Below, one piece after another: positions 1 through 64,000 of a DNA stretch of 64,000 nt. A program made the translations under genes and the position numbers. This DNA is from Rhynochetos jubatus. Taxonomy: Eukaryota; Chordata; Aves; Eurypygiformes; Rhynochetidae. Each line of letters begins with the position of its first letter. The first letter of the stretch is position 1. Under the pieces are notes generated by a model. That model ran no database searches and was not told where the DNA came from. It saw only the letters and a program-made list of their open reading frames with translations. Where the stretch lies: positions 12,660,404 through 12,724,403 of the forward strand of contig CM050657.1 of the NCBI GenBank assembly GCA_027574665.1. The letters are read 5' to 3'.

Positions 1-84
1 TGGGTGGAGTGTTTTGCTGCTCTTGGCAGGCCTTTGCAATGCCAGCTAGCCCTGGAGCTGTGGGCTTTCTGGTTCTCCGGACGC

Positions 85-105
85 TAACCCTAAGCGTAAC
101 CCTAA
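85..105 (-). promoter_or_regulatory. Paired TRF1/TRF2-type telomeric sites (first example, repeated per monomer)
   Basis: Two TAACCCTAA nonamers (85-93 and 97-105) are separated by GCG. On the - strand each reads TTAGGGTTA and matches YTAGGGTTR, the Myb-domain recognition sequence of the shelterin proteins TRF1 and TRF2. The centres are 12 bp apart, close to one helical turn. The same pair recurs in almost every monomer. The common TAGGCG variant changes the first site to CTAGGGTTA, which still fits because Y can be C. Few monomers lose a site: 42837 has CTAATCC, 53051 and 54100 have CCCTGC, 58146 has GTAAGCC, 58852 has AACACTAA and 60774 has CTTACCC. Binding is inferred from the consensus only. 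Confidence 0.6.
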
Positions 106-115
106 TTGTTAGGGT
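99..115. repeat. Inverted telomeric hexamer pair (type A monomers, first example)
   Basis: ACCCTAA and TTAGGGT face each other across a TTG spacer, forming a 7-bp-arm inverted repeat within one monomer. Type A monomers carry it throughout the array, interleaved with type B monomers where the right arm is replaced by ATTTGACG or ATTTAACG. The order C-strand then G-strand is opposite to a chromosome end fusion, which reads (TTAGGG)n(CCCTAA)n. It is therefore not a fusion scar. Confidence 0.85.
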
Positions 116-152
116 GCGCGGTTTCCGGCCCCGGCCCCCCTGGGTTCTGGCT

Positions 153-158
153 AATAAA
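153..158 (+). promoter_or_regulatory. AATAAA hexamer in the LANK-type monomers (first example)
   Basis: CTAATAAAGG occurs in a subset of monomers where others have CTAGGGAAGG, CTAGGAAAGG, CTAGGGCAGG or CTAATACAGG. It is followed within ~20-45 bp by the GT-rich run TGTGGGTGCAGTGTTTTG. Together these resemble a poly(A) signal with a downstream element on the + strand. It could be chance within a repeat, and transcription is not shown by the sequence. Confidence 0.35.
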
Positions 159-255
159 GTTGGGGAGGCAGCAATGTGGGTGCAGTGTTTTGCTCCTCTT
201 GGCAGGCCTTTGCAATGCCAGCTAGCCCTGGAGCTGTGGGCTTTCTGGTTCTCCG
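159..255 (+). repeat. Near-invariant core of the monomer (first example)
   Basis: The ~100-bp stretch from GGTGGGGAGGCAGC to the CTCCGG is almost identical in all ~363 copies. The one common polymorphism is C/G in TTTTGCTSCTCTTGG. Others are rare, such as CTTTGTGG for CTTTCTGG, GGAGGGAGC for GGAGGCAGC, and single-copy changes at 4441, 22049, 26603, 37509, 39635 and 58953. It contains AGGCCT, GCTAGC and small inverted repeats (TGGCA/TGCCA and CAGCT/AGCTG). It contrasts with the variable GC-rich stretch beside it. Confidence 0.8.
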
Positions 256-351
256 GACGCTAACCCTAAGCGTAACCCTAATATTTGACGTGCGCGGTTT
301 CCGGCCCCGGCCCCTGTGGGTTCTGGCTAATAAAGGTGGGGAGGCAGCAAT
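176..351 (+). repeat. Representative complete type B monomer
   Basis: A full 176-bp unit in landmark phase. The order is core from the ATG (176), AGGCCT (204-209), GCTAGC (220-225), CTCCGGACG, telomere-like pair (261-281), type B segment ATATTTGACGTGCG, GC-rich CCGGCCCCGGCCCC, GGTTCTGG, CTAATAAAGG, and GGGGAGGCAGC. The type B segment differs from type A at five linked positions within seven bases. The open frame from 176 extends half-way into the next copy, to 439, and is not considered coding. Confidence 0.9.
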
Positions 352-527
352 GTGGGTGCAGTGTTTTGCTGCTCTTGGCAGGCCTTTGCAATGCCAGCTA
401 GCCCTGGAGCTGTGGGCTTTCTGGTTCTCCGGACGCTAACCCTAAGCGTAACCCTAATTGTTAGGGTGCGCGGTTTCCGGCCCCGGCCCCTCTGGGTTCT
501 GGCTAATAAAGGTGGGGAGGCAGCAAT
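352..527 (+). repeat. Representative complete type A monomer
   Basis: Same layout as the type B monomer but with ATTGTTAGGGTGCG after the telomere-like pair, giving the inverted telomeric arms. It carries the G allele at the core dimorphism (TTTTGCTGCTC). Confidence 0.9.
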
Positions 528-3167: not shown

Positions 3168-3252
3168 GTGGGTGCAGTGTTTTGCTCCTCTTGGCAGGCC
3201 TTTGCAATGCCAGCTAGCCCTGGAGCTGTGGGCTTTCTGGTTCTCCGGACGC

Positions 3253-3273
3253 TAACCATAACCCTAACCCTAA
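3253..3273 (+). repeat. Extended telomeric run with one mismatch
   Basis: The motif reads as (TAACCC)3TAA with one C>A in the first hexamer, instead of the usual TAAGCG/TAGGCG interruption. It is an isolated member of the uninterrupted class that dominates 6421-6963. Confidence 0.8.
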
Positions 3274-6420: not shown

Positions 6421-6963
6421 TAACCCTAACCCTAACCCTAATATTTGACGTGCGCGGTTTCCGCCCCCGGCCCCTGTGGGTTCTGGCTAGGAAAGGTGGG
6501 GAGGCAGCAATGTGGGTGCAGTGTTTTGCTCCTCTTGGCAGGCCTTTGCAATGCCAGCTAGCCCTGGAGCTGTGGGCTTTCTGGTTCTCCGGACGCTAAC
6601 CCTAACCCTAACCCTAATATTTGACGTGCGCGGTTTCCGGCCGCGGCCCCTCCGGACTCTGGCTAATAAAGGTGGGGAGGCAGCAATGTGGGTGCAGTGT
6701 TTTGCTCCTCTTGGCAGGCCTTTGCAATGCCAGCTAGCCCTGGAGCTGTGGGCTTTCTGGTTCTCCGGACGCTAACCCTAACCCTAACCCTAATATTTGA
6801 CGTGCGCGGTTTCCGGCCCCGGCCCCTGTGGGTTCTGGCTAATAAAGCTGGGGAGGGAGCAATGTGGGTGCAGTGTTTTGCTCCTCTTGGCAGGCCTTTG
6901 CAATGCCAGCTAGCCCTGGAGCTGTGGGCTTTCTGGTTCTCCGGACGCTAACCCTAACCCTAA
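6421..6963 (+). repeat. Cluster of monomers with uninterrupted telomeric hexamers
   Basis: Four consecutive monomers carry perfect runs. Those at 6421-6441, 6597-6617 and 6773-6793 are (TAACCC)3TAA, and 6949-6963 is (TAACCC)2TAA. The last is one hexamer shorter and makes a 170-bp monomer (6864-7033). All four are type B. Elsewhere the middle hexamer is almost always degenerate (AAGCG or AGGCG), so this is a local, homogenised island of the canonical sequence. Confidence 0.92.
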
Positions 6964-7033
6964 TATTTGACGTGCGCGGTTTCCGCCCCCGGCCCCTGTG
7001 GGTTCTGGCTAATAAAGGTGGGGAGGCAGCAAT
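6864..7033 (+). repeat. 170-bp monomer, one telomeric hexamer short
   Basis: The telomeric run at 6949-6963 has two hexamers instead of three, which shortens the unit by exactly 6 bp. A whole-hexamer loss suggests slippage inside a pure TAACCC run like those in the preceding three monomers. Two other 170-bp monomers occur at 52782 and 53831. Confidence 0.9.
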
Positions 7034-10462: not shown

Positions 10463-11363
10463 TAACCCTAACCCTAACCGTAATATTTGACGTGCGCGGT
10501 TTCCAGCCCCGGCCAATCCGGATTCTGGCTAATAAAGGTGGGGAGGCAGCAATGTGGGTGCAGTGTTTTGCTGCTCTTGGCAGGCCTTTGCAATGCCAGC
10601 TAGCCCTGGAGCTGTGGGCTTTCTGGTTCTCCGGACGCTAACCCTAAGCGTAACCCTAATATTTGACGTGCGCGGTTTCCGGCCCCGGCCCCTCTGGGTT
10701 CTGGCTAATAAAGCTGGGGAGGGAGCAATGTGGGTGCAGTGTTTTGCTCCTCTTGGCAGGCCTTTGCAATGCCAGCTAGCCCTGGAGCTGTGGGCTTTGT
10801 GGTTCTCCGGACGCTAACCCTAAGCGTAACCCTAATTGTTAGGGTGCGCGGTTTCCGGCCCCGGACCCTGTGGGTTCTGGCTAATAAAGGTGGGGAGGCA
10901 GCAATGTGGGTGCAGTGTTTTGCTCCTCTTGGCAGGCCTTTGCAATGCCAGCTAGCCCTGGAGCTGTGGGCTTTCTGGTTCTCCGGACGCTAACCCTAAC
11001 CCTAACTCTAATATTTGACGTGCTCGGTTTCCGGCCCCGGCCCCTCTGGGTTCTGGCTAATACAGGTGGGGAGGCAGCAATGTGGGTGCAGTGTTTTGCT
11101 CCTCTTGGCAGGCCTTTGCAATGCCAGCTAGCCCTGGAGCTGTGGGCTTTCTGGTTCTCCGGACGCTAACCCTAAGCGTAACCCTAATTGTTAGGGTGCG
11201 CGGTTTCCGGCCCCGGCCCCTGTGGGTTCTGGCTAATAAAGGTGGGGATGCAGCAATGTGGGTGCAGTGTTTTGCTCCTCTTGGCAGGCCTTTGCAATGC
11301 CAGCTAGCCCTGGAGCTGTGGGCTTTCTGGTTCTCCGGACGCTAACCCTAACCCTAACTCTAA
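10463..11363 (+). repeat. Three near-perfect telomeric runs
   Basis: Runs of three hexamers occur at 10463-10483 (last hexamer TAACCG), 10991-11011 and 11343-11363 (last hexamer TAACTC in both). The two TAACTC monomers also share GACGTGCTCGG. They are copied by the large block duplication to 17327-17347 and 17679-17699. Confidence 0.88.
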
Positions 11364-12137
11364 TATTTGACGTGCTCGGTTTCCGGCCCCGGCCCCTGTG
11401 GGTTCTGGCTAGGGCAGGTGGGGAGGCAGCAATGTGGGTGCAGTGTTTTGCTCCTCTTGGCAGGCCTTTGCAATGCCAGCTAGCCCTGGAGCTGTGGGCT
11501 TTCTGGTTCTCCGGACGCTAACCCTAAGCGTAACCCTAATTGTTAGGGTGCGTGGTTTCCGGCCCCGGCCCCTCTGGGTTCTGGCTAGGAAAGGTGGGGA
11601 GGCAGCAATGTGGGTGCAGTGTTTTGCTCCTCTTGGCAGGCCTTTGCAATGCCAGCTAGCCCTGGAGCTGTGGGCTTTCTGGTTCTCCGGACGCTAACCC
11701 TAAGCGTAACCCTAATATTTGACGTGCGCGGTTTCCGTCCCCGGCCCCTCTGCGTTCTGGCTAGGGAAGGTGGGGAGGCAGCAATGTGGGTGCAGTGTTT
11801 TGCTCCTCTTGGCAGGCCTTTGCAATGCCAGCTAGCCCTGGAGCTGTGGGCTTTCTGGTTCTCCGGACGCTAACCCTAAGCGTAACCCTAATATTTGACG
11901 TGCGCGGTTTCCGTCCCCGGCCCCTCTGCGTTCTGGCTAGGGAAGGTGGGGAGGCAGCAATGTGGGTGCAGTGTTTTGCTGCTCTTGGCAGGCCTTTGCA
12001 ATGCCAGCTAGCCCTGGAGCTCTGGGCTTTCTGGTTCTCCGGACGCTAACCCTAAGCGTAACCCTAATTGTTAAAGTGCGCGGTTTCCGGCCCCGACCCT
12101 TCTGGGTTCTGGCTAGGGAAGGTGGGGAGGCAGCAAT

Positions 12138-14073
12138 GTGGGTGCAGTGTTTTGCTGCTCTTGGCAGGCCTTTGCAATGCCAGCTAGCCCTGGAGCTGTG
12201 GGCTTTCTGGTTCTCCGGACGCTAACCCTAAGCGTAACCCTAATTGTTAGGGTGCGCGGTTTCCGGCCCCGGCCCCTCTGCGTTCTGGCTAGGGAAGGTG
12301 GGGAGGCAGCAATGTGGGTGCAGTGTTTTGCTCCTCTTGGCAGGCCTTTGCAATGCCAGCTAGCCCTGGAGCTGTGGGCTTTCTGGTTCTCCGGACGCTA
12401 ACCCTAGGCGTAACCCTAATATTTAACTTGCGCGGTTTCCGTCCTCGGCCCCTCTGCGTTCTGGCTAGGGAAGGTGGGGAGGCAGCAATGTGGGTGCAGT
12501 GTTTTGCTCCTCTTGGCAGGCCTTTGCAATGCCAGCTAGCCCTGGAGCTGTGGGCTTTCTGGTTCTCCGGACGCTAACCCTAAGCGTAACCCTAATTGTT
12601 AGGGTGCGCGGTTTCCGTCCCCGGCCCCTGTGGGTTCTGGCTAGGGAAGGTGGGGAGGCAGCAATGTGGGTGCAGTGTTTTGCTCCTCTTGGCAGGCCTT
12701 TGCAATGCCAGCTAGCCCTGGAGCTGTGGGCTTTCTGGTTCTCCGGACGCTAACCCTAGGCGTAACCCTAATATTTAACTTGCGCGGTTTCCGTCCCCGG
12801 CCCCTCTGCGTTCTGGCTAGGGAAGGTGGGGAGGCAGCAATGTGGGTGCAGTGTTTTGCTCCTCTTGGCAGGCCTTTGCAATGCCAGCTAGCCCTGGAGC
12901 TGTGGGCTTTCTGGTTCTCCGGACGCTAACCCTAAGCGTAACCCTAATTGTTAGGGTGCGCGGTTTCCGGCCCCGGCCCCTGTGGGTTCTGGCTAGGGAA
13001 GGTGGGGAGGCAGCAATGTGGGTGCAGTGTTTTGCTGCTCTTGGCAGGCCTTTGCAATGCCAGCTAGCCCTGGAGCTGTGGGCTTTCTGGTTCTCCGGAC
13101 GCTAACCCTAGGCGTAACCCTAATATTTGACGTGCGCGGTTTCCGTCCCCGGCCACTGTGGGTTCTGGCTAGGGAAGGTGGGGAGGCAGCAATGTGGGTG
13201 CAGTGTTTTGCTCCTCTTGGCAGGCCTTTGCAATGCCAGCTAGCCCTGGAGCTGTGGGCTTTCTGGTTCTGCAGACGCTAACCCTAAGCGTAACCCTAAT
13301 TGTTAGGGTGCGCGGTTTCCGGCCCGGGCCCCTCTGGGTTCTGGCTAGGAAAGGTGGGGAGGCAGCAATGTGGGTGCAGTGTTTTGCTGCTCTTGGCAGG
13401 CCTTTGCAATGCCAGCTAGCCCTGGAGCTGTGGGCTTTCTGGTTCTCCGGACGCTAACCCTAAGCATAACCCTAATTGTTAGGGTGCGCGGTTTCCGTCC
13501 CCGGCCCCTGTGGGTTCTGGCTAGGGAAGGTGGGGAGGCAGCAATGTGGGTGCAGTGTTTTGCTGCTCTTGGCAGGCCTTTGCAATGCCAGCTAGCCCTG
13601 GAGCTGTGGGCTTTCTGGTTCTCCGGACGCTAACCCTAAGCGTAACCCTAATTGTTAGGGTGCACGGTTTCCGGCCCGGGCCCCTCTGGGTTCTGGCTAG
13701 GAAAGGTGGGGAGGCAGCAATGTGGGTGCAGTGTTTTGCTGCTCTTGGCAGGCCTTTGCAATGCCAGCTAGCCCTGGAGCTGTGGGCTTTCTGGTTCTCC
13801 GGACGCTAACCCTAAGCCTAACCCTAATTGTTAGGGTGCGTGCTTTCCGACCCCGGCCCCCCTGGGTTCTGGCTAGGGAAGGTGGGGAGGCAGCAATGTG
13901 GGTGCAGTGTTTTGCTCCTCCTGGCAGGCCTTTGCAATGCCAGCTAGCCCTGGAGCTGTGGGCTTTCTGGTTCTCCGGACGCTAACCCTAAGCATAACCC
14001 TAATATTTGACGTGCGCGGTTTCCGGCCCCGGCCCCTGTGGGTTCTGGCTAGGAAAAGTGGGGAGGCAGCAAT
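12138..14073 (+). repeat. Eleven-monomer expanded copy of the 8090-9497 block
   Basis: Carries the same ordered markers as 8090-9497 but with an additional ATTTAACTTG monomer (12666) and two additional monomers around 13194-13545, including the CTGCAGACG one. It was then carried into 18474-20409 by the 36-monomer duplication, so the duplications are nested. Confidence 0.78.
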
Positions 14074-14601
14074 GTGGGTGCAGTGTTTTGCTGCTCTTGG
14101 CAGGCCTTTGCAATGCCAGCTAGCCCTGGAGCTGTGGGCTTTCTGGTTCTCCGGACGCTAACCCTAGGCGTAACCCTAATTGTTAGGGTGCGCGGTTTCC
14201 GTCCCCGGCCCCTGTGGGTTCTGGCTAATAAAGGTGGGGAGGCAGCAATGTGGATGCAGTGTTTTGCTCCTCTTGGCAGGCCTTTGCAATGCCAGCTAGC
14301 CCTGGAGCTGTGGGCTTTCTGGTTCTCCGGACGCTAACCCTAAGCGTAACCCTAATATTTGACGTGCGCGGTTTCCGGCCCCGGCCCCTCTGGGTTCTGG
14401 CTAGGAAAGGTGGGGAGGCAGCAATGTGGGTGCAGTGTTTTGCTCCTCTTGGCAGGCCTTTGCAATGCCAGCTAGCCCTGGAGCTGTGGGCTTTCTGGTT
14501 CTCCGGACGCTAACCCTAAGCGTAACCCTAATTGTTAGGGTGCGCGGTTTCCGGCCCCGGCCCCTGTGGGTTCTGGCTAGGGAAGGTGGGGAGGCAGCAA
14601 T

Positions 14602-15305
14602 GTGGGTGCAGTGTTTTGCTCCTCTTGGCAGGCCTTTGCAATGCCAGCTAGCCCTGGAGCTGTGGGCTTTCTGGTTCTCCGGACGCTAACCCTAAGCGTA
14701 ACCCTAATTGTTAGGGTGCGCGGTTTCCGGCCCCGGCCCCTGTGGGTTCTGGCTAGGGAAGGTGGGGAGGCAGCAATGTGGGTGCAGTGTTTTGCTGCTC
14801 TTGGCAGGCCTTTGCAATGCCAGCTAGCCCTGGAGCTGTGGGCTTTCTGGTTCTCCGGACGCTAACCCTAGGCGTAACCCTAATATTTAACGTGCGCAGT
14901 TTCCGTCCCCGGCCCCTCTGTGTTCTGGCTAGGGAAGGTGGGGAGGCAGCAATGTGGGTGCAGTGTTTTGCTCCTCTTGGCAGGCCTTTGCAATGCCAGC
15001 TAGCCCTGGAGCTGTGGGCTTTCTGGTTCTCCGGACGCTAACCCTAAGCGTAACCCTAATTGTTAGGGTGCGCGGTTTCCGGCCCCGGCCCCTGTGGGTT
15101 CTGGCTAGGGAAGGTGGGGAGGCAGCAATGTGGGTGCAGTGTTTTGCTCCTCTTGGCAGGCCTTTGCAATGCCAGCTAGCCCTGGAGCTGTGGGCTTTCT
15201 GGTTCTCCGGACGCTAACCCTAAGCGTAACCCTAATTGTTAGGGTGCGCGGTTTCCGTCCCCGGCCCCTGTGGGTTCTGGCTAGGGAAGGTGGGGAGGCA
15301 GCAAT
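14602..15305 (+). repeat. Four-monomer segment absent from the second large block
   Basis: These 704 bp lie in copy 1 between segments that are contiguous in copy 2 (junction near 20938). The difference is an exact multiple of the monomer, as expected from unequal exchange or slippage in register. Whether it was lost from copy 2 or gained in copy 1 cannot be decided here. Confidence 0.8.
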
Positions 15306-15798: not shown

Positions 15799-16889
15799 TG
15801 GGTTCTGGCTAGGAAAGGTGGGGAGGCAGCAATGTGGGTGCAGTGTTTTGCTCCTCTTGGCAGGCCTTTGCAATGCCAGCTAGCCCTGGAGCTGTGGGCT
15901 TTCTGGTTCTCCGGACGCTAACCCTAAGCGTAACCCTAATTGTTAGGGTGCGCGGTTTCCGGCCCCGGCCCCTCTGGGTTCTGGCTAGGAAAGGTGGGGA
16001 GGCAGCAATGTGGGTGCAGTGTTTTGCTCCTCTTGGCAGGCCTTTGCAATGCCAGCTAGCCCTGGAGCTGTGGGCTTTCTGGTTCTCCGGACGCTAACCC
16101 TAAGCGTAACCCTAATTGTTAGGGTGCGCGGTTTCCGGCCCCGGCCCCTGTGGGTTCTGGCTAGGGAAGGTGGGGAGGCAGCAATGTGGGTGCAGTGTTT
16201 TGCTCCTCTTGGCAGGCCTTTGCAATGCCAGCTAGCCCTGGAGCTGTGGGCTTTCTGGTTCTCCGGACGCTAACCCTAGGCGTAACCCTAATATTTGACG
16301 TGCGCGTTTTCCGGCCCCGGCCCCTGTGGGTTCTGGCTAGGGAAGGTGGGGAGGCAGCAATGTGGGTGCAGTGTTTTGCTGCTCTTGGCAGGCCTTTGCA
16401 ATGCCAGCTAGCCCTGGAGCTGTGGGCTTTCTGGTTCTCCGGACGCTAACCCTAGGCGTAACCCTAATATTTAACGTGCGCGGTTTCCGTCCCCGGCCCC
16501 TCTGTGTTCTGGCTAGGGAAGGTGGGGAGGCAGCAATGTGGGTGCAGTGTTTTGCTCCTCTTGGCAGGCCTTTGCAATGCCAGCTAGCCCTGGAGCTGTG
16601 GGCTTTCTGGTTCTCCGGACGCTAACCCTAGGCGTAACCCTAATATTTGACGTGCGCGGTTTCCGTCCCCGGCCCCTGTGGGTTCTGGCTAGGGAAGGTG
16701 GGGAGGCAGCAATGTGGGTGCAGTGTTTTGCTCCTCTTGGCAGGCCTTTGCAATGCCAGCTAGCCCTGGAGCTGTGGGCTTTCTGGTTCTGCAGACGCTA
16801 ACCCTAAGCGTAACCCTAATTGTTAGGGTGCGCGGTTTCCGGCCCGGGCCCCTCTGGGTTCTGGCTAGGAAAGGTGGGGAGGCAGCAAT

Positions 16890-19800
16890 GTGGGTGCAGT
16901 GTTTTGCTGCTCTTGGCAGGCCTTTGCAATGCCAGCTAGCCCTGGAGCTGTGGGCTTTCTGGTTCTCCGGACGCTAACCCTAAGCGTAACCCTAATATTT
17001 GACGTGCGCGGTTTCCGGCCCCGGCCCCTCTGGGTTCTGGCTAATAAAGCTGGGGAGGGAGCAATGTGGGTGCAGTGTTTTGCTCCTCTTGGCAGGCCTT
17101 TGCAATGCCAGCTAGCCCTGGAGCTGTGGGCTTTGTGGTTCTCCGGACGCTAACCCTAAGCGTAACCCTAATTGTTAGGGTGCGCGGTTTCCGGCCCCGG
17201 ACCCTGTGGGTTCTGGCTAATAAAGGTGGGGAGGCAGCAATGTGGGTGCAGTGTTTTGCTCCTCTTGGCAGGCCTTTGCAATGCCAGCTAGCCCTGGAGC
17301 TGTGGGCTTTCTGGTTCTCCGGACGCTAACCCTAACCCTAACTCTAATATTTGACGTGCTCGGTTTCCGGCCCCGGCCCCTCTGGGTTCTGGCTAATACA
17401 GGTGGGGAGGCAGCAATGTGGGTGCAGTGTTTTGCTCCTCTTGGCAGGCCTTTGCAATGCCAGCTAGCCCTGGAGCTGTGGGCTTTCTGGTTCTCCGGAC
17501 GCTAACCCTAAGCGTAACCCTAATTGTTAGGGTGCGCGGTTTCCGGCCCCGGCCCCTGTGGGTTCTGGCTAATAAAGGTGGGGATGCAGCAATGTGGGTG
17601 CAGTGTTTTGCTCCTCTTGGCAGGCCTTTGCAATGCCAGCTAGCCCTGGAGCTGTGGGCTTTCTGGTTCTCCGGACGCTAACCCTAACCCTAACTCTAAT
17701 ATTTGACGTGCTCGGTTTCCGGCCCCGGCCCCTGTGGGTTCTGGCTAGGGCAGGTGGGGAGGCAGCAATGTGGGTGCAGTGTTTTGCTCCTCTTGGCAGG
17801 CCTTTGCAATGCCAGCTAGCCCTGGAGCTGTGGGCTTTCTGGTTCTCCGGACGCTAACCCTAAGCGTAACCCTAATTGTTAGGGTGCGTGGTTTCCGGCC
17901 CCGGCCCCTCTGGGTTCTGGCTAGGAAAGGTGGGGAGGCAGCAATGTGGGTGCAGTGTTTTGCTCCTCTTGGCAGGCCTTTGCAATGCCAGCTAGCCCTG
18001 GAGCTGTGGGCTTTCTGGTTCTCCGGACGCTAACCCTAAGCGTAACCCTAATATTTGACGTGCGCGGTTTCCGTCCCCGGCCCCTCTGCGTTCTGGCTAG
18101 GGAAGGTGGGGAGGCAGCAATGTGGGTGCAGTGTTTTGCTCCTCTTGGCAGGCCTTTGCAATGCCAGCTAGCCCTGGAGCTGTGGGCTTTCTGGTTCTCC
18201 GGACGCTAACCCTAAGCGTAACCCTAATATTTGACGTGCGCGGTTTCCGTCCCCGGCCCCTCTGCGTTCTGGCTAGGGAAGGTGGGGAGGCAGCAATGTG
18301 GGTGCAGTGTTTTGCTGCTCTTGGCAGGCCTTTGCAATGCCAGCTAGCCCTGGAGCTCTGGGCTTTCTGGTTCTCCGGACGCTAACCCTAAGCGTAACCC
18401 TAATTGTTAAAGTGCGCGGTTTCCGGCCCCGACCCTTCTGGGTTCTGGCTAGGGAAGGTGGGGAGGCAGCAATGTGGGTGCAGTGTTTTGCTGCTCTTGG
18501 CAGGCCTTTGCAATGCCAGCTAGCCCTGGAGCTGTGGGCTTTCTGGTTCTCCGGACGCTAACCCTAAGCGTAACCCTAATTGTTAGGGTGCGCGGTTTCC
18601 GGCCCCGGCCCCTCTGCGTTCTGGCTAGGGAAGGTGGGGAGGCAGCAATGTGGGTGCAGTGTTTTGCTCCTCTTGGCAGGCCTTTGCAATGCCAGCTAGC
18701 CCTGGAGCTGTGGGCTTTCTGGTTCTCCGGACGCTAACCCTAGGCGTAACCCTAATATTTAACTTGCGCGGTTTCCGTCCTCGGCCCCTCTGCGTTCTGG
18801 CTAGGGAAGGTGGGGAGGCAGCAATGTGGGTGCAGTGTTTTGCTCCTCTTGGCAGGCCTTTGCAATGCCAGCTAGCCCTGGAGCTGTGGGCTTTCTGGTT
18901 CTCCGGACGCTAACCCTAAGCGTAACCCTAATTGTTAGGGTGCGCGGTTTCCGTCCCCGGCCCCTGTGGGTTCTGGCTAGGGAAGGTGGGGAGGCAGCAA
19001 TGTGGGTGCAGTGTTTTGCTCCTCTTGGCAGGCCTTTGCAATGCCAGCTAGCCCTGGAGCTGTGGGCTTTCTGGTTCTCCGGACGCTAACCCTAGGCGTA
19101 ACCCTAATATTTAACTTGCGCGGTTTCCGTCCCCGGCCCCTCTGCGTTCTGGCTAGGGAAGGTGGGGAGGCAGCAATGTGGGTGCAGTGTTTTGCTCCTC
19201 TTGGCAGGCCTTTGCAATGCCAGCTAGCCCTGGAGCTGTGGGCTTTCTGGTTCTCCGGACGCTAACCCTAAGCGTAACCCTAATTGTTAGGGTGCGCGGT
19301 TTCCGGCCCCGGCCCCTGTGGGTTCTGGCTAGGGAAGGTGGGGAGGCAGCAATGTGGGTGCAGTGTTTTGCTGCTCTTGGCAGGCCTTTGCAATGCCAGC
19401 TAGCCCTGGAGCTGTGGGCTTTCTGGTTCTCCGGACGCTAACCCTAGGCGTAACCCTAATATTTGACGTGCGCGGTTTCCGTCCCCGGCCACTGTGGGTT
19501 CTGGCTAGGGAAGGTGGGGAGGCAGCAATGTGGGTGCAGTGTTTTGCTCCTCTTGGCAGGCCTTTGCAATGCCAGCTAGCCCTGGAGCTGTGGGCTTTCT
19601 GGTTCTGCAGACGCTAACCCTAAGCGTAACCCTAATTGTTAGGGTGCGCGGTTTCCGGCCCGGGCCCCTCTGGGTTCTGGCTAGGAAAGGTGGGGAGGCA
19701 GCAATGTGGGTGCAGTGTTTTGCTGCTCTTGGCAGGCCTTTGCAATGCCAGCTAGCCCTGGAGCTGTGGGCTTTCTGGTTCTCCGGACGCTAACCCTAAG

Positions 19801-22521
19801 CATAACCCTAATTGTTAGGGTGCGCGGTTTCCGTCCCCGGCCCCTGTGGGTTCTGGCTAGGGAAGGTGGGGAGGCAGCAATGTGGGTGCAGTGTTTTGCT
19901 GCTCTTGGCAGGCCTTTGCAATGCCAGCTAGCCCTGGAGCTGTGGGCTTTCTGGTTCTCCGGACGCTAACCCTAAGCGTAACCCTAATTGTTAGGGTGCA
20001 CGGTTTCCGGCCCGGGCCCCTCTGGGTTCTGGCTAGGAAAGGTGGGGAGGCAGCAATGTGGGTGCAGTGTTTTGCTGCTCTTGGCAGGCCTTTGCAATGC
20101 CAGCTAGCCCTGGAGCTGTGGGCTTTCTGGTTCTCCGGACGCTAACCCTAAGCCTAACCCTAATTGTTAGGGTGCGTGCTTTCCGACCCCGGCCCCCCTG
20201 GGTTCTGGCTAGGGAAGGTGGGGAGGCAGCAATGTGGGTGCAGTGTTTTGCTCCTCCTGGCAGGCCTTTGCAATGCCAGCTAGCCCTGGAGCTGTGGGCT
20301 TTCTGGTTCTCCGGACGCTAACCCTAAGCATAACCCTAATATTTGACGTGCGCGGTTTCCGGCCCCGGCCCCTGTGGGTTCTGGCTAGGAAAAGTGGGGA
20401 GGCAGCAATGTGGGTGCAGTGTTTTGCTGCTCTTGGCAGGCCTTTGCAATGCCAGCTAGCCCTGGAGCTGTGGGCTTTCTGGTTCTCCGGACGCTAACCC
20501 TAGGCGTAACCCTAATTGTTAGGGTGCGCGGTTTCCGTCCCCGGCCCCTGTGGGTTCTGGCTAATAAAGGTGGGGAGGCAGCAATGTGGATGCAGTGTTT
20601 TGCTCCTCTTGGCAGGCCTTTGCAATGCCAGCTAGCCCTGGAGCTGTGGGCTTTCTGGTTCTCCGGACGCTAACCCTAAGCGTAACCCTAATATTTGACG
20701 TGCGCGGTTTCCGGCCCCGGCCCCTCTGGGTTCTGGCTAGGAAAGGTGGGGAGGCAGCAATGTGGGTGCAGTGTTTTGCTCCTCTTGGCAGGCCTTTGCA
20801 ATGCCAGCTAGCCCTGGAGCTGTGGGCTTTCTGGTTCTCCGGACGCTAACCCTAAGCGTAACCCTAATTGTTAGGGTGCGCGGTTTCCGGCCCCGGCCCC
20901 TGTGGGTTCTGGCTAGGGAAGGTGGGGAGGCAGCAATGTGGGTGCAGTGTTTTGCTCCTCTTGGCAGGCCTTTGCAATGCCAGCTAGCCCTGGAGCTGTG
21001 GGCTTTCTGGTTCTCCGGACGCTAACCCTAAGCGTAACCCTAATATTTGACGTGCGCGGTTTCCGTCCCCGGCCCCTCTGCGTTCTGGCTAGGGAAGGTG
21101 GGGAGGCAGCAATGTGGGTGCAGTGTTTTGCTGCTCTTGGCAGGCCTTTGCAATGCCAGCTAGCCCTGGAGCTGTGGGCTTTCTGGTTCTCCGGACGCTA
21201 ACCCTAGGCGTAACCCTAATATTTGACGTGCGCGTTTTCCGGCCCCGGCCCCTGTGGGTTCTGGCTAGGGAAGGTGGGGAGGCAGCAATGTGGGTGCAGT
21301 GTTTTGCTGCTCTTGGCAGGCCTTTGCAATGCCAGCTAGCCCTGGAGCTGTGGGCTTTCTGGTTCTCCGGACGCTAACCCTAAGCGTAACCCTAATTGTT
21401 AGGGTGCGCGGTTTCCGGCCCGGGCATATGTGGGTTCTGGCTAGGAAAGGTGGGGAGGCAGCAATGTGGGTGCAGTGTTTTGCTCCTCTTGGCAGGCCTT
21501 TGCAATGCCAGCTAGCCCTGGAGCTGTGGGCTTTCTGGTTCTCCGGACGCTAACCCTAAGCGTAACCCTAATTGTTAGGGTGCGCGGTTTCCGGCCCCGG
21601 CCCCTCTGGGTTCTGGCTAGGAAAGGTGGGGAGGCAGCAATGTGGGTGCAGTGTTTTGCTCCTCTTGGCAGGCCTTTGCAATGCCAGCTAGCCCTGGAGC
21701 TGTGGGCTTTCTGGTTCTCCGGACGCTAACCCTAAGCGTAACCCTAATTGTTAGGGTGCGCGGTTTCCGGCCCCGGCCCCTGTGGGTTCTGGCTAGGGAA
21801 GGTGGGGAGGCAGCAATGTGGGTGCAGTGTTTTGCTCCTCTTGGCAGGCCTTTGCAATGCCAGCTAGCCCTGGAGCTGTGGGCTTTCTGGTTCTCCGGAC
21901 GCTAACCCTAGGCGTAACCCTAATATTTGACGTGCGCGTTTTCCGGCCCCGGCCCCTGTGGGTTCTGGCTAGGGAAGGTGGGGAGGCAGCAATGTGGGTG
22001 CAGTGTTTTGCTGCTCTTGGCAGGCCTTTGCAATGCCAGCTAGCCCTGCAGCTGTGGGCTTTCTGGTTCTCCGGACGCTAACCCTAGGCGTAACCCTAAT
22101 ATTTAACGTGCGCGGTTTCCGTCCCCGGCCCCTCTGTGTTCTGGCTAGGGAAGGTGGGGAGGCAGCAATGTGGGTGCAGTGTTTTGCTCCTCTTGGCAGG
22201 CCTTTGCAATGCCAGCTAGCCCTGGAGCTGTGGGCTTTCTGGTTCTCCGGACGCTAACCCTAGGCGTAACCCTAATATTTGACGTGCGCGGTTTCCGTCC
22301 CCGGCCCCTGTGGGTTCTGGCTAGGGAAGGTGGGGAGGCAGCAATGTGGGTGCAGTGTTTTGCTCCTCTTGGCAGGCCTTTGCAATGCCAGCTAGCCCTG
22401 GAGCTGTGGGCTTTCTGGTTCTGCAGACGCTAACCCTAAGCGTAACCCTAATTGTTAGGGTGCGCGGTTTCCGGCCCGGGCCCCTCTGGGTTCTGGCTAG
22501 GAAAGGTGGGGAGGCAGCAAT
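16890..22521 (+). repeat. Large higher-order block, copy 2 (32 monomers, 5632 bp)
   Basis: Immediately adjacent tandem copy of 10554-16889 minus four monomers. Private differences are few, for example G>C in CCCTGCAGCTG at about 22049. The end of copy 1 and the end of copy 2 carry the same CTGCAGACG monomer (16714 and 22346). In copy 1 it is followed by the block start. In copy 2 it is followed by a monomer like 13370 and 19706, so the exchange point lies in or next to this monomer. Confidence 0.92.
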
Positions 22522-27977: not shown

Positions 27978-30262
27978 GTGGGTGCAGTGTTTTGCTGCTC
28001 TTGGCAGGCCTTTGCAATGCCAGCTAGCCCTGGAGCTGTGGGCTTTCTGGTTCTCCGGACGCTAACCCTAAGCATAACCCTAATTAGGGTGCGCGGTTTC
28101 CGGCCCCGGCCCCTCTGGGTTCTGACTAGGAAAGGTGGGGAGGCAGCAATGTGGGTGCAGTGTTTTGCTCCTCTTGGCAGGCCTTTGCAATGCCAGCTAG
28201 CCCTGGAGCTGTGGGCTTTCTGGTTCTCCGGACGCTAACCCTAGGCGTAACCCTAATATTTGACGTGCGCGGTTTCCGTCCCCGGCCCCTGTGGGTTCTG
28301 GCTAGGGAAGGTGGGGAGGCAGCAATGTGGGTGCAGTGTTTTGCTCCTCTTGGCAGGCCTTTGCAATGCCAGCTAGCCCTGGAGCTGTGGGCTTTCTGGT
28401 TCTCCGGACGCTAACCCTAAGCATAACCCTAATTGTTAGGGTGCGCGGTTTCCGGCCCGGGCCCCTCTGGGTTCTGGCTAGGAAAGGTGGGGAGGCAGCA
28501 ATGTGGGTGCAGTGTTTTGCTGCTCTTGGCAGGCCTTTGCAATGCCAGCTAGCCCTGGAGCTGTGGGCTTTGTGGTTCTCCGGACGCTAACCCTAAGCAT
28601 AACCCTAATTGTTAGGGTGCGCGGTTTCCGTCCCCGGCCCCTGTGGGTTCTGGCTAGGGAAGGTGGGGAGGCAGCAATGTGGGTGCAGTGTTTTGCTGCT
28701 CTTGGCAGGCCTTTGCAATGCCAGCTAGCCCTGGAGCTGTGGGCTTTCTGGTTCTCTGGACGCTAACCCTAAGCGTAACCCTAATTGTTAGGGTGCACGG
28801 TTTCCGGCCCGGGCCCCTCTGGGTTCTGGCTAGGGAAGGTGGGGAGGCAGCAATGTGGGTGCAGTGTTTTGCTGCTCTTGGCAGGCCTTTGCAATGCCAG
28901 CTAGCCCTGGAGCTGTGGGCTTTGTGGTTCTCCGGACGCTAACCCTAAGCGTAACCCTAATTGTAAGGGTGCGTGCTTTCCGACCCCGGCCCCCCTGGGT
29001 TCTGGCTAGGGAAGGTGGGGAGGCAGCAATGTGGGTGCAGTGTTTTGCTCCTCCTGGCAGGCCTTTGCAATGCCAGCTAGCCCTGGAGCTGTGGGCTTTC
29101 TGGTTCTCCGGACGCTAACCCTAAGCGTAACCCTAATATTTGACGTGCGCGGTTTCCGGCCCGGGCCGCTGTGGGTTCTGGCTAGGAAAGGTGGGGAGGC
29201 AGCAATGTGGGTGCAGTGTTTTGCTGCTCTTGGCAGGCCTTTGCAATGCCAGCTAGCCCTGGAGCTGTGGGCTTTGTGGTTCTCTGGACGCTAACCCTAA
29301 GCGTAACCCTAATATTTGACGTGCGCGGTTTCCGGCCCGGGCCCCTCTGGGTTCTGGCTAGGGCAGGTGGGGAGGCAGCAATGTGGGTGCAGTGTTTTGC
29401 TGCTCTTGGCAGGCCTTTGCAATGCCAGCTAGCCCTGGAGCTGTGGGCTTTCTGGTTCTCCGGACGCTAACCCTAGGCGTAACCCTAATATTTAACGTGC
29501 GTGGTTTCCGTCCCCGGCCCCTCTGTGTTCTGGCTAGGGAAGGTGGGGAGGCAGCAATGTGGGTGCAGTGTTTTGCTCCTCTTGGCAGGCCTTTGCAATG
29601 CCAGCTAGCCCTGGAGCTGTGGGCTTTCTGGTTCTCCGGACGCTAACCCTAAGCGTAACCCTAATTGTTAGGGTGCGCGGTTTCCGGCCCCGGCCCCTGT
29701 GGGTTCTGGCTAGGGAAGGTGGGGAGGCAGCAATGTGGGTGCAGTGTTTTGCTCCTCTTGGCAGGCCTTTGCAATGCCAGCTAGCCCTGGAGCTGTGGGC
29801 TTTCTGGTTCTCCGGACGCTAACCCTAAGCGTAACCCTAATATTTGACGTGCGCGGTTTCCGTCCCCGGCCCCTCTGCGTTCTGGCTAGGGAAGGTGGGG
29901 AGGCAGCAATGTGGGTGCAGTGTTTTGCTGCTCTTGGCAGGCCTTTGCAATGCCAGCTAGCCCTGGAGCTGTGGGCTTTCTGGTTCTCCGGACGCTAACC
30001 CTAGGCGTAACCCTAATATTTGACGTGCGCGTTTTCCGGCCCCGGCCCCTGTGGGTTCTGGCTAGGGAAGGTGGGGAGGCAGCAATGTGGGTGCAGTGTT
30101 TTGCTGCTCTTGGCAGGCCTTTGCAATGCCAGCTAGCCCTGGAGCTGTGGGCTTTCTGGTTCTCCGGACGCTAACCCTAAGCGTAACCCTAATTGTTAGG
30201 GTGCGCGGTTTCCGGCCCCGGCCCCTGTGGGTTCTGGCTAGGAAAGGTGGGGAGGCAGCAAT
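27978..30262 (+). repeat. 13-monomer higher-order period (2285 bp)
   Basis: Begins with the 173-bp monomer and ends just before the next one. The first eight monomers run through the GTGCACGG, GCGTGCTTTCCGACC and CTCTGGACG types. The last five run from the ATTTAACGTGCGTGG type to a CTAGGAAAGG type. The next two periods repeat the first eight. Confidence 0.85.
28077..28090. repeat. 14-bp perfect telomeric palindrome in a 173-bp monomer
   Basis: Loss of the 3-bp TTG spacer fuses the two arms into ACCCTAATTAGGGT, a perfect palindrome. The same lesion occurs at 30362-30375, 33527-33540 and 36692-36705, always with AGCATAAC before it and TTCTGACTAGG after it. All four are therefore copies of one founder monomer, spaced 2285, 3165 and 3165 bp. 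Confidence 0.93.
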
Positions 30263-33200
30263 GTGGGTGCAGTGTTTTGCTGCTCTTGGCAGGCCTTTGC
30301 AATGCCAGCTAGCCCTGGAGCTGTGGGCTTTCTGGTTCTCCGGACGCTAACCCTAAGCATAACCCTAATTAGGGTGCGCGGTTTCCGGCCCCGGCCCCTC
30401 TGGGTTCTGACTAGGAAAGGTGGGGAGGCAGCAATGTGGGTGCAGTGTTTTGCTCCTCTTGGCAGGCCTTTGCAATGCCAGCTAGCCCTGGAGCTGTGGG
30501 CTTTCTGGTTCTCCGGACGCTAACCCTAGGCGTAACCCTAATATTTGACGTGCGCGGTTTCCGTCCCCGGCCCCTGTGGGTTCTGGCTAGGGAAGGTGGG
30601 GAGGCAGCAATGTGGGTGCAGTGTTTTGCTCCTCTTGGCAGGCCTTTGCAATGCCAGCTAGCCCTGGAGCTGTGGGCTTTCTGGTTCTCCGGACGCTAAC
30701 CCTAAGCATAACCCTAATTGTTAGGGTGCGCGGTTTCCGGCCCGGGCCCCTCTGGGTTCTGGCTAGGAAAGGTGGGGAGGCAGCAATGTGGGTGCAGTGT
30801 TTTGCTGCTCTTGGCAGGCCTTTGCAATGCCAGCTAGCCCTGGAGCTGTGGGCTTTCTGGTTCTCCGGACGCTAACCCTAAGCATAACCCTAATTGTTAG
30901 GGTGCGCGGTTTCCGTCCCCGGCCCCTGTGGGTTCTGGCTAGGGAAGGTGGGGAGGCAGCAATGTGGGTGCAGTGTTTTGCTGCTCTTGGCAGGCCTTTG
31001 CAATGCCAGCTAGCCCTGGAGCTGTGGGCTTTCTGGTTCTCTGGACGCTAACCCTAAGCGTAACCCTAATTGTTAGGGTGCACGGTTTCCGGCCCGGGCC
31101 CCTCTGGGTTCTGGCTAGGGAAGGTGGGGAGGCAGCAATGTGGGTGCAGTGTTTTGCTGCTCTTGGCAGGCCTTTGCAATGCCAGCTAGCCCTGGAGCTG
31201 TGGGCTTTCTGGTTCTCCGGACGCTAACCCTAAGCGTAACCCTAATTGTAAGGGTGCGTGCTTTCCGACCCCGGCCCCCCTGGGTTCTGGCTAGGGAAGG
31301 TGGGGAGGCAGCAATGTGGGTGCAGTGTTTTGCTCCTCCTGGCAGGCCTTTGCAATGCCAGCTAGCCCTGGAGCTGTGGGCTTTCTGGTTCTCCGGACGC
31401 TAACCCTAAGCGTAACCCTAATATTTGACGTGCGCGGTTTCCGGCCCCGGCCCCTGTGGGTTCTGGCTAGGAAAGGTGGGGAGGCAGCAATGTGGGTGCA
31501 GTGTTTTGCTGCTCTTGGCAGGCCTTTGCAATGCCAGCTAGCCCTGGAGCTGTGGGCTTTGTGGTTCTCTGGACGCTAACCCTAAGCGTAACCCTAATAT
31601 TTGACGTGCGCGGTTTCCGGCCCGGGCCCCTCTGGGTTCTGGCTAGGGCAGGTGGGGAGGCAGCAATGTGGGTGCAGTGTTTTGCTGCTCTTGGCAGGCC
31701 TTTGCAATGCCAGCTAGCCCTGGAGCTGTGGGCTTTCTGGTTCTCCGGACGCTAACCCTAGGCGTAACCCTAATTGTTAGGGTGCGCGGTTTCCGTCCCC
31801 GGCCCCTGTGGGTTCTGGCTAATAAAGGTGGGGAGGCAGCAATGTGGATGCAGTGTTTTGCTCCTCTTGGCAGGCCTTTGCAATGCCAGCTAGCCCTGGA
31901 GCTGTGGGCTTTCTGGTTCTCTGGACGCTAACCCTAAGCGTAACCCTAATTGTTAGGGTGCACGGTTTCCGGCCCGGGCCCCTCTGGGTTCTGGCTAGGG
32001 AAGGTGGGGAGGCAGCAATGTGGGTGCAGTGTTTTGCTGCTCTTGGCAGGCCTTTGCAATGCCAGCTAGCCCTGGAGCTGTGGGCTTTGTGGTTCTCCGG
32101 ACGCTAACCCTAAGCGTAACCCTAATTGTAAGGGTGCGTGCTTTCCGACCCCGGCCCCCCTGGGTTCTGGCTAGGGAAGGTGGGGAGGCAGCAATGTGGG
32201 TGCAGTGTTTTGCTCCTCCTGGCAGGCCTTTGCAATGCCAGCTAGCCCTGGAGCTGTGGGCTTTCTGGTTCTCCGGACGCTAACCCTAAGCGTAACCCTA
32301 ATATTTGACGTGCGCGGTTTCCGGCCCCGGCCCCTGTGGGTTCTGGCTAGGAAAGGTGGGGAGGCAGCAATGTGGGTGCAGTGTTTTGCTGCTCTTGGCA
32401 GGCCTTTGCAATGCCAGCTAGCCCTGGAGCTGTGGGCTTTGTGGTTCTCTGGACGCTAACCCTAAGCGTAACCCTAATATTTGACGTGCGCGGTTTCCGG
32501 CCCGGGCCCCTCTGGGTTCTGGCTAGGGCAGGTGGGGAGGCAGCAATGTGGGTGCAGTGTTTTGCTGCTCTTGGCAGGCCTTTGCAATGCCAGCTAGCCC
32601 TGGAGCTGTGGGCTTTCTGGTTCTCCGGACGCTAACCCTAGGCGTAACCCTAATATTTAACGTGCGTGGTTTCCGTCCCCGGCCCCTCTGTGTTCTGGCT
32701 AGGGAAGGTGGGGAGGCAGCAATGTGGGTGCAGTGTTTTGCTCCTCTTGGCAGGCCTTTGCAATGCCAGCTAGCCCTGGAGCTGTGGGCTTTCTGGTTCT
32801 CCGGACGCTAACCCTAAGCGTAACCCTAATTGTTAGGGTGCGCGGTTTCCGGCCCCGGCCCCTGTGGGTTCTGGCTAGGGAAGGTGGGGAGGCAGCAATG
32901 TGGGTGCAGTGTTTTGCTCCTCTTGGCAGGCCTTTGCAATGCCAGCTAGCCCTGGAGCTGTGGGCTTTCTGGTTCTCCGGACGCTAACCCTAAGCGTAAC
33001 CCTAATATTTGACGTGCGCGGTTTCCGTCCCCGGCCCCTCTGCGTTCTGGCTAGGGAAGGTGGGGAGGCAGCAATGTGGGTGCAGTGTTTTGCTGCTCTT
33101 GGCAGGCCTTTGCAATGCCAGCTAGCCCTGGAGCTGTGGGCTTTCTGGTTCTCCGGACGCTAACCCTAGGCGTAACCCTAATATTTGACGTGCGCGTTTT

Positions 33201-33427
33201 CCGGCCCCGGCCCCTGTGGGTTCTGGCTAGGGAAGGTGGGGAGGCAGCAATGTGGGTGCAGTGTTTTGCTGCTCTTGGCAGGCCTTTGCAATGCCAGCTA
33301 GCCCTGGAGCTGTGGGCTTTCTGGTTCTCCGGACGCTAACCCTAAGCGTAACCCTAATTGTTAGGGTGCGCGGTTTCCGGCCCCGGCCCCTGTGGGTTCT
33401 GGCTAGGAAAGGTGGGGAGGCAGCAAT
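30263..33427 (+). repeat. 18-monomer higher-order period, first (3165 bp)
   Basis: Same eight leading and five trailing monomers as 27978-30262, with five monomers (31668-32547, 880 bp) inserted between them. The insert largely repeats the preceding GTGCACGG to CTCTGGACG series. It begins with a TGTGGATGCAG-associated monomer. Monomer 31844 is a chimera of the TGTGGATGCAG type and the GTGCACGG type. Confidence 0.85.
31668..32547 (+). repeat. Five-monomer internal duplication (880 bp)
   Basis: The monomers at 31844, 32020, 32196 and 32372 repeat the series at 30964, 31140, 31316 and 31492, including ATTGTAAGGGTGCGTGC and CTCCTCCTGG. The monomer at 31668 links the two copies. It explains why this period has 18 monomers instead of 13. 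Confidence 0.8.
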
Positions 33428-61568: not shown

Positions 61569-62273
61569 GTGGGTGCAGTGTTTTGCTCCTCTTGGCAGGC
61601 CTTTGCAATGCCAGCTAGCCCTGGAGCTGTGGGCTTTCTGGTTCTCCGGACGCTAACCCTAGGCGTAACCCTAATTGTTAGGGTGCGCCTTTTCCGGCCC
61701 CGGCCCCTGTGGGTTCTGGCTAGGGAAGGTGGGGAGGCAGCAATGTGGGTGCAGTGTTTTGCTGCTCTTGGCAGGCCTTTGCAATGCCAGCTAGCCCTGG
61801 AGCTGTGGCCTTTCTGGTTCTCCGGACGCTAACCCTAAGCGTAACCCTAATATTTAACGTGTGCGGTTTCCGTCTCCGTCCCCTGTGGGTTCTGGCTAAT
61901 AAAGGTGGGGAGGCAGCAACGTGGGTACAGTGTTTTGCTGCTCTTGGCAGGCCTTTGCAATGCCAGCTAGCCCTGGAGCTGTGGGCTTTCTGGTTCTCCG
62001 GACGCTAACCCTAGGTGTAACCCTAATATTTGACGTGCGCGTTTTCCGGCCCCGGCCCCCCTGGGTTCTGGCTAGGAAAGGTGGGGAGGCAGCAATGTGG
62101 GTGCAGTGTTTTGCTCCTCTTGGCAGGTCTTTGCAATGCCAGCTAGCCCTGGAGCTGTGGGCTTTCTGGTTCTCCAGATGCTAACCCTAAGCGTAACCCT
62201 AATTGTTCGGGTGCGCGGTTTTCCGTCCCCGGCCCCTGTGGGTTCTGGCTAGGAAAGGTGGGGAGGCAGCAAT
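61569..62273 (+). repeat. Four-monomer unit, copy 1 (705 bp)
   Basis: Tandemly repeated at 62274-62978. Shared markers: GCGCCTTTTCC, TGTGGCCTTTC, GCAACGTGGGTACAG, TAGGTGTAACC, GGCAGGTCTTTGC (loss of AGGCCT) and CGGTTTTCCGTCC. The extra T in the last makes the 177-bp monomers at 62097 and 62802. Copies differ at very few positions (for example CGTCTCCGTCC versus CGTCCCCGGCC), so this is one of the youngest duplications in the window. Confidence 0.93.
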
Positions 62274-62978
62274 GTGGGTGCAGTATTTTGCTGCTCTTGG
62301 CAGGCCTTTGCAATGCCAGCTAGCCCTGGAGCTGTGGGCTTTCTGGTTCTCCGGACGCTAACCCTAGGCGTAACCCTAATTGTTAGGGTGCGCCTTTTCC
62401 GGCCCCGGCCCCTGTGGGTTCTGGCTAGGGAAGGTGGGGAGGCAGCAATGTGGGTGCAGTGTTTTGCTGCTCTTGGCAGGCCTTTGCAATGCCAGCTAGC
62501 CCTGGAGCTGTGGCCTTTCTGGTTCTCCGGACGCTAACCCTAAGCGTAACCCTAATATTTAACGTGTGCGGTTTCCGTCCCCGGCCCCTGTGGGTTCTGG
62601 CTAATAAAGGTGGGGAGGCAGCAACGTGGGTACAGTGTTTTGCTGCTCTTGGCAGGCCTTTGCAATGCCAGCTAGCCCTGGAGCTGTGGGCTTTCTGGTT
62701 CTCCGGACGCTAACCCTAGGTGTAACCCTAATATTTGACGTGCGCGTTTTCCGGCCCCGGCCCCCCTGGGTTCTGGCTAGGAAAGGTGGGGAGGCAGCAA
62801 TGTGGGTGCAGTGTTTTGCTCCTCTTGGCAGGTCTTTGCAATGCCAGCTAGCCCTGGAGCTGTGGGCTTTCTGGTTCTCCAGATGCTAACCCTAAGCGTA
62901 ACCCTAATTGTTCGGGTGCGCGGTTTTCCGTCCCCGGCCCCTGTGGGTTCTGGCTAGGAAAGGTGGGGAGGCAGCAAT
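62274..62978 (+). repeat. Four-monomer unit, copy 2 (705 bp)
   Basis: Second copy of 61569-62273. Its first monomer has GCAGTATTTTG, which also appears in the monomer that follows the block (62979) but not at 61569. This places the exchange boundary just before that segment. The 177-bp monomer is 62802-62978. Confidence 0.93.
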
Positions 62979-63858
62979 GTGGGTGCAGTATTTTGCTGCT
63001 CTTGGCAGGCCTTTGCAATGCCAGCTAGCCCTGGAGCTGTGGGCTTTCTGGTTCTCCGGACGCTAACCCTAGGCGTAACCCTAATATTTGACGTGCGCGG
63101 TTTCCGGCCCCGGCCCCTGTGGGTTCTGGCTAGGGAAGTTGGGGAGGCAGCAATGTGGGTGCAGTGTTTTGCTCCTCTTGGCAGGCCTTTGCAATGCCAG
63201 CTAGCCCTGGAGCTGTGGGCTTTCTGGTTCTCCGGACGCTAACCCTAAGCGTAACCCTAATTGTTAGGGTGCGCGGTTTCCGTCCCCGGCCCCTGTGGGT
63301 TCTGGCTAGGGAAGGTGGGGAGGCAGCAATGTGGGTGCAGTGTTTTGCTCCTCTTGGCAGGCCTTTGCAATGCCAGCTAGCCCTGGAGCTGTGGGCTTTC
63401 TGGTTCTCCGGACGCTAACCCTAGGCGTAACCCTAATTGTTAGGGTGCGCGGTTTCCGGCCCTTGCCCCTCTGGGTTCTGGCTAATAAAGGTGGGGAGGC
63501 AGCAATGTGGGTGCAGTGTTTTGCTGCTCTTGGCAGGCCTTTGCAATGCCAGCTAGCCCTGGAGCTGTGGGCTTTCTGGTTCTCCGGACGCTAACCCTAA
63601 GCGTAACCCTAATTGTTAGGGTGCGCGGCTTCCGGCTGCGGCCCCTGTGGGTTCTGGCTAGGAAAGGTGGAGAGGCAGCAATGTGGGTGCAGTGTTTTGC
63701 TGCTCTTGGCAGGCCTTTGCAATGCCAGCTAGCCCTGGAGCTGTGGGCTTTCTGGTTCTCCGGACGCTAACCCTAAGCGTAACCCTAATATTTGACGTGC
63801 GCGGTTTCCGGCCCCGGCCCCCCTGGGTTCTGGCTAGGAAAGGTGGGGAGGCAGCAAT

Positions 63859-64000
63859 GTGGGTGCAGTGTTTTGCTCCTTTTGGCAGGCCTTTGCAATG
63901 CCAGCTAGCCCTGGAGCTGTGGGCTTTCTGGTTCTCCGGACGCTAACCCTAGGCGTAACCCTAATATTTGATGTGCGCGGTTTCCGTCCACGGCCCCTCT
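63859..64000 (+). repeat. Last monomer, cut by the window end
   Basis: 142 bp of a type B monomer, ending in CGGCCCCTCT. It carries GCTCCTTTTGG and TTTGATGTGCG, a CpG transition of TTTGACGTGCG. The array continues beyond the window. Confidence 0.9.

Follow-up and report, generated by a model that had tools for sequence, protein, structure and literature searches.

The cores of chicken centromeres often encompass (TTAGGG)n, and most submetacentric and metacentric chromosomes of this bird have tandem repeats specific to the chromosome (PMC9974502). Heterochromatic interstitial telomeric sequences (het-ITS) have been suggested to form part of centromeric satellite units in the frog Boana faber, as outlined in PMC9693754. 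In the present study, a stretch of 64,000 nucleotides from Rhynochetos jubatus (assembly GCA_027574665.1; 1.33 Gb in 148 contigs), located at positions 12,660,404-12,724,403 of contig CM050657.1 (here C12) and referred to as the window, was found to be a single uninterrupted tandem array of a 176-bp satellite (363.8 copies, with 94% matches between copies), nearly every unit of which holds two nonamers of the TRF consensus within a short telomere-like tract. We propose, with a probability of roughly 0.6, that this megabase satellite with its nucleosome-sized unit is a candidate centromeric satellite of at least four chromosomes that has acquired telomere DNA. The telomere piece in the monomer looks like a relic of the history of the repeat and not like a protein-binding site kept by selection.

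Because chicken centromeres contain both (TTAGGG)n and tandem repeats, a bird satellite with a telomere tract in its unit fits known biology. The centromeric repeats of the chicken, including the 41-bp CNM repeat, resemble the present satellite in forming large tandem arrays in a bird and in placing telomere sequence at centromere DNA (PMC9974502); here, in contrast, the telomere tract lies inside the 176-bp monomer, the window has no higher-order repeats, and one satellite is found on several chromosomes. Primate alpha satellite likewise has a nucleosome-sized unit and megabase internal arrays (PMC8122249), whereas the unit described here lacks a CENP-B box, forms no higher-order repeats in the window, and has a GC content of 59% (0.585-0.593 in 4-kb steps). 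The window, in which local exact duplications are the sole longer-range repetition, therefore qualifies neither as a higher-order-repeat satellite nor as a CENP-B-dependent one. The likeness to het-ITS lies in the amplification of a telomere motif at internal, probably centromeric sites and in the possible binding of TRF1, TRF2 and RAP1 (PMC9693754); the difference is that only 3.5 hexamers per 176 bp occur here, with the middle hexamer altered in most copies. Six sequence words of the satellite occurred in no paper, and among the papers listed by length and theme none described it in its title or at the beginning of its abstract. Owls (Strigidae) are known for a centromeric satellite of almost the same length, 174 bp, which is described as present on all chromosomes.

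Internal arrays on four chromosomes

The window belongs to a 1.80-Mb array that extends on the plus strand from about 12,299,800 to about 14,102,120 of C12, a contig of 31,633,907 bases that continues for 12.3 Mb to the left of the array and for 17.5 Mb to its right. Further internal arrays were located on C8 (25.872 to 28.243-28.250 of 42.58 Mb), C17 (14.286 to 15.920-15.940 of 24.07 Mb) and C18 (5.401 to 6.150-6.200 of 22.07 Mb, or about 0.75-0.8 Mb). The four arrays thus range from about 0.75 to 2.4 Mb, and three of them exceed 1.6 Mb; their interiors and flanks were covered by sampling and not by continuous reading. Near its left end, the C12 array is broken by 530 bp or more of non-satellite sequence, which begins just after 12,300,064, is over before 12,305,000 and separates a short outer satellite piece from the main array.

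The initial annotation had raised the possibility that the array lies beside a telomere, which proved not to be the case. The real telomere of C12 is at the right end, 17.5 Mb away, where TTAGGG repeats run to the last base and are adjoined by a different tandem repeat with a unit of 61 bp; at its left end, C8 similarly carries CCCTAA repeats and a 62-bp repeat. The 176-bp satellite was not found at either of these two ends beyond the telomere word itself, and it does not adjoin a telomere as a subtelomeric repeat would. No run of three telomere hexamers was present in the samples from the left ends of C12 and C18 and the right end of C8, and the start of C17 reads N.

With three or fewer mismatches allowed, the core word of the monomer has 41,605 copies genome-wide, of which 19,068 are forward and 22,537 are reverse, and the exact paired-nonamer words occur 33,209 times. 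Since the C12 and C18 arrays have a capacity of about 14,500-14,800 forward copies of 176 bp, there is an excess of about 4,300, and at least one more forward array, of about 0.75 Mb, probably lies on another contig. Because the arrays are megabase-sized, consist of nucleosome-sized units, and are internal on several chromosomes (C8, C12, C17 and C18), a centromeric or pericentromeric satellite is the simplest reading.

The telomere-hexamer tract of the monomer

The first complete monomer, used here as the example unit, occupies window positions 176..351 on the plus strand, so that monomer position 1 is window position 176. It begins with a conserved core (monomer 1-77; window 176..252), which has the fewest rare variants per site. 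The first nonamer (monomer 86-94; window 261..269) matches the TRF consensus on the minus strand, where it reads TTAGGGTTA, and the second (monomer 98-106; window 273..281) matches on the same strand; between them lies a GCG spacer (monomer 95-97; window 270..272), the degenerate portion of a middle telomere hexamer, which is more variable than the flanking nonamers. The subsequent variable part (monomer 107-158; window 282..333) occurs in two haplotypes, namely TTGTTAGGG (T type) and TATTTGACG (A type).

The statement of the initial annotation that almost every monomer carries two TRF-type nonamers, about 700 copies in all, was borne out. TAACCCTAR occurs 718 times in the window against a mean of 1.79 and a maximum of 5 in dinucleotide shuffles, always on the plus strand among the 200 matches listed, and the TRF consensus YTAGGGTTR occurs 723 times, always on the minus strand. 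Among the 362 complete monomers of the window, the number of consensus sites is two in 351, one in 8 and three in 3; in 345, the nonamers are paired at exactly 3-nt spacing, in the same orientation and with half-sites 12 bp apart, and in 310 of the monomers the spacer is GCG. Moreover, each of the 941 monomers sampled across the four chromosomes has at least one consensus site. The exact sequence TAACCCTAAGCGTAACCCTAA is present in 225/362 monomers and its TAG form in 80. The reported TAAGCG/TAGGCG polymorphism is likewise real, with G at monomer position 94 in 88/362 monomers, and it converts TTAGGGTTA to CTAGGGTTA as described.

The two nonamers and the spacer together read TAACCC-TAAGCG-TAACCC-TAA, which amounts to 3.5 telomere hexamers in a single register with 19 of 21 bases matching, a value reached by none of 2000 shuffled monomers (maximum 16). 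A perfect middle hexamer, with C at positions 95 and 97, occurs in 58/941 monomers, of which 35 are among the 592 of C12 and 23 among the 136 of C8, whereas none was seen in the 155 monomers of C17 or the 58 of C18; one such variant monomer carries the perfect 3.5-hexamer tract TAACCCTAACCCTAACCCTAA at window positions 6421..6441 (plus strand). In addition, nine of the 941 monomers are 170 bases long, and eight of these lack just one tract hexamer, as in the 2.5-hexamer tract at window positions 3259..3273 (plus strand); in the ninth (locus L008) and in the single 182-base monomer, the differences fall outside the tract. Such whole-hexamer losses are the expected product of slippage in telomere-like repeats. 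The perfect or one-hexamer-short tracts are found mainly on A-type units (56/64). With its hexamers in register at an internal site, the tract can be classed as an interstitial telomeric sequence. The initial annotation had offered, as one explanation, that telomeric DNA seeded the satellite and was then amplified. As an origin, this is supported by the hexamer register, the perfect variants on C12 and C8 and the hexamer-sized deletions, and telomere-DNA seeding of the satellite unit is likely.

Variation among monomers and turnover of the array

A motif in a satellite can seem conserved merely through recent amplification of the unit, and it must therefore be weighed against the rest of the unit and against other chromosomes. 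The 941 monomers come from four chromosomes, where they were cut with a strict anchor out of the window and a further 43 loci, and seven overlapping monomers were removed before counting; the set leaves out locus L001, which overlaps the window, the edge loci L065, L089 and L109-L111, and the 250-bp probes. Some counts derive from an earlier table of 932 monomers, in which gaps in the anchor were allowed and a cutting artefact arose at position 176. Rare variants, defined as those below 2% within a chromosome, were taken at non-CpG sites as rough independent events.

In the window, the mean per-site variability is 0.28% for the first nonamer without its last base and 0.34% for the second, compared with 0.88% (median 0) in the core, 4.6% in GCG, 10.2% in 107-158 and 0.43% in 159-176. 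In the full set, the nonamers have 1.67 rare variants per site, as against 0.94 in the core, which makes them more variable than the core (p=0.026), and 2.17 in positions 159-176 (p=0.34). The substitution-rate comparison put forward by the initial annotation holds in part: the nonamers are less variable than the adjacent GC-rich stretch 107-158 (2.73 rare variants per site, p=0.024), but the difference vanishes against all other non-motif sites of the unit (1.66, p=0.79). Among all 9-bp windows, the two nonamers rank at the 62nd and 48th percentiles for variability, and a conserved block some 100 bp long ends with them. Because the nonamers vary as much as the other sites, the sequence shows no sign of selection on the sites themselves, and the proposal that the satellite is kept as a TRF platform gains no support from this comparison, with fewer substitutions at the nonamers only in relation to 107-158.

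The changes within the nonamers can be counted by type or by copy. By type, the 932-monomer table has 26 variants, of which 3 keep the consensus and 23 break it; by copy, 125 of 177 changes keep it, although 116 of these are the consensus-keeping A94G. This substitution was found in 116/592 monomers of C12 and in 0/349 of the three other chromosomes. Its restriction to C12 in the sample suggests that a single variant was amplified there, and A94G is most simply read as one variant spread on one chromosome.

No higher-order repeat was found in the window, where identity between units is 0.945-0.953 at lags of 1-60. Two exact duplications stand out among units otherwise about 95% alike: a stretch of 4,175 bp (window 10534..14708, plus strand) recurs at 16870-21044, and one of 2,136 bp (29169..31304, plus strand) at 32334-34469, with the copies 6.3 and 3.2 kb apart. 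The 4,175-bp exact copy may be either a very recent segment duplication or an assembly error, and such an error may also account for the 2,136-bp one. The T and A haplotypes at positions 108-114 are intermixed throughout the window. Polymorphic sites lose their linkage over about 15-30 bp, which suggests that units often exchange short pieces. An arrangement in subfamily blocks was rejected on account of this interspersion and short linkage. Mean divergence between chromosomes, at 0.042-0.056, is similar to the 0.035-0.052 found within them, and when 40 of 675 candidates were scored for a two-unit query from C18, one on C8 matched at 99%.

Two candidates for older material in the arrays were considered and rejected. 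Monomers with perfect tracts at first looked more diverged, but the difference was not significant once haplotypes were split (p=0.088 and 0.28). The array edges were examined as the oldest copies, and the five edges disagree: at the left edges, C8 has 2.5 hexamers with one change, C17 has no tract, C18 has the intact GCG form and C12 is cut off inside the tract, while the right edge of C12 has the GCG form with an A-type end. Owing to this conflict, the edges give no common answer as to the presence of the tract in the ancestral unit. The outermost C17 monomer (L109, about 14,286,250-14,286,420), which is the most diverged, is about 85% identical over positions 1-78 and is without a telomere tract; the tract may have been inserted later, or it may have decayed in this monomer.

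Centromeric reading and its alternatives

In the reading favoured here, the unit would have gained its telomere tract at some stage of its evolution, and unequal exchange, segment duplication and short-tract conversion would then have multiplied the two together. Since the tract would be copied along with the unit, tens of thousands of TRF half-sites would be a by-product of amplification and not of base-by-base selection, and shelterin binding, if any, would be a consequence rather than a cause. We infer that CENP-A is present on the satellite; the centromere would work epigenetically, with CENP-A and H3 nucleosomes phased regularly at 176 bp, and, as a conjecture, the dyads of the unit could perhaps assist in place of a CENP-B box. 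With a telomere piece built into the unit and present tens of thousands of times, the presence of telomere proteins at bird centromeres becomes directly testable.

Several observations weigh against a centromeric satellite. The assignment rests on position and structure. In relation to the 17-mer CENP-B box given in PMC8122249, no box was found in the monomer, where the best match has 8 of 16 bases of the 17-mer, although the box is not required. The nine-base core of the box is a measure of its own, and by it the monomer reaches at best 6 of 9 essential bases. None of this satellite was seen on C1-C7 among the matches listed. The satellite is common to several chromosomes, whereas the repeats of chicken submetacentric and metacentric chromosomes are described as chromosome-specific (PMC9974502). 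Furthermore, the outermost monomer of C17 is without the tract while the outermost full monomer of C18 has an intact GCG tract, and these leave room for different orders of events.

The arrays could instead be a pericentromeric or other heterochromatin block and not the kinetochore site, with the true centromere formed by a smaller repeat or unique sequence nearby. We hold this to be a tentative alternative of rather low likelihood, given that 49 loci sampled outside the arrays (57,821 bases, including 3,000 N) contained no other long tandem array except at two contig ends, with their telomere and 61-62-bp repeats, although a smaller repeat could be missed in flanks covered by samples. That the arrays mark ancestral chromosome joints, and that the tract descends directly from fused telomeres, appears unlikely. 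The telomere-register tract and the internal position on four chromosomes agree with such a fusion, and the chicken genome paper proposes that the repeats of submetacentric and metacentric chromosomes formed on fusion (PMC9974502), but the tract is one short piece within a complex 176-bp unit, and no two adjacent telomere hexamers in either orientation were found at six edge loci (two at C12 left, one at C12 right, and the left edges of C8, C17 and C18). Dyad symmetry leads to a further alternative, in which the unit is not telomere-derived, GCG and its flanks form perfect dyads, and the likeness to telomere DNA is their by-product. Satellites are known to contain dyads (PMC8122249), and chicken CNM and a W repeat show dyad symmetry (PMC9974502). 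In the present unit, perfect inverted repeats surround both nonamers: ACGCT-AACCCTA-AGCGT (window 81..97, plus strand, in the first, partial monomer), whose loop lies within nonamer 1, and, in T-type units only, ACCCTAA-TTG-TTAGGGT (window 99..115, plus strand), one arm of which holds nonamer 2. The 44-mer of T-type units gives a better fold than its shuffles do (z -2.09, 8/200 as good), which holds neither for that of the A type (z -0.34, 70/200) nor for a conserved 43-mer of the core (z 0.09); moreover, C at position 86 occurs in 8/932 monomers, and all 8 carry G at 94. These paired changes may, however, be one or two inherited events, the perfect-hexamer versions break the first dyad, and the register of 19 of 21 hexamer bases is left unexplained by dyads, which makes this origin improbable.

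Retention of the satellite as a TRF platform, in which TRF1 and TRF2 bind the paired sites and the shelterin so recruited serves cohesion, replication or nuclear positioning at an internal locus, is in our view similarly improbable. The near-universal pairing of same-orientation half-sites, the excess of consensus-keeping changes by copy and the lower variability than in 107-158 would suit it, a review regards heterochromatic interstitial telomere repeats as possible binding places of TRF1, TRF2 and RAP1 (PMC9693754), and GFP-TRF1 foci in hamster cells have been read as telomeric and interstitial blocks (PMC3488537). On the other hand, the nonamers are as variable overall as other sites and more so than the core, most of their variant types break the consensus, the array is distant from the telomere, and by arithmetic there are 2 half-sites per 176 bp here as against about 29 in pure telomere DNA. 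TRF binding to the array is possible; the monomers give no sign that such binding keeps the satellite. A search of the genome for the TRF gene family gave no match, and the control genomes were likewise without a match. More doubtful still is the idea that TRF1 and TRF2, or telomerase- or TERRA-linked factors, are recruited to several centromeres through the satellite motif and fill the role that CENP-B has in mammals. Recruitment of this kind would be compatible with the absence of base-level constraint because two tolerant half-sites in more than 40,000 units provide great redundancy, and, if true, a motif recognised by shelterin would be built into nearly every nucleosome-sized centromeric unit.

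Some further observations concern sequences away from the satellite. The telomere at the right end of C12 (L078, C12:31,631,000-31,633,907) includes TTCGGG variant repeats, and the 61-62-bp subtelomeric repeat at L078 and L022 (C8:1-3000) contains words like ACTACAGTTCCCGGCATGC in many of its units, which we take to resemble the ZNF143/THAP11 motif. A search for cytochrome b gave no hit, and sequence words of the globins occurred in no paper. Globin matches, which point to a bird genome, were seen at three places close together on C19 and as a cluster on C2. When an alpha chain put together from three exons at L082 was compared with PDB entries, human two-copy alpha constructs had the highest totals, and entries named 'Hemoglobin subunit alpha-A', most of them from birds, matched it over its full length.

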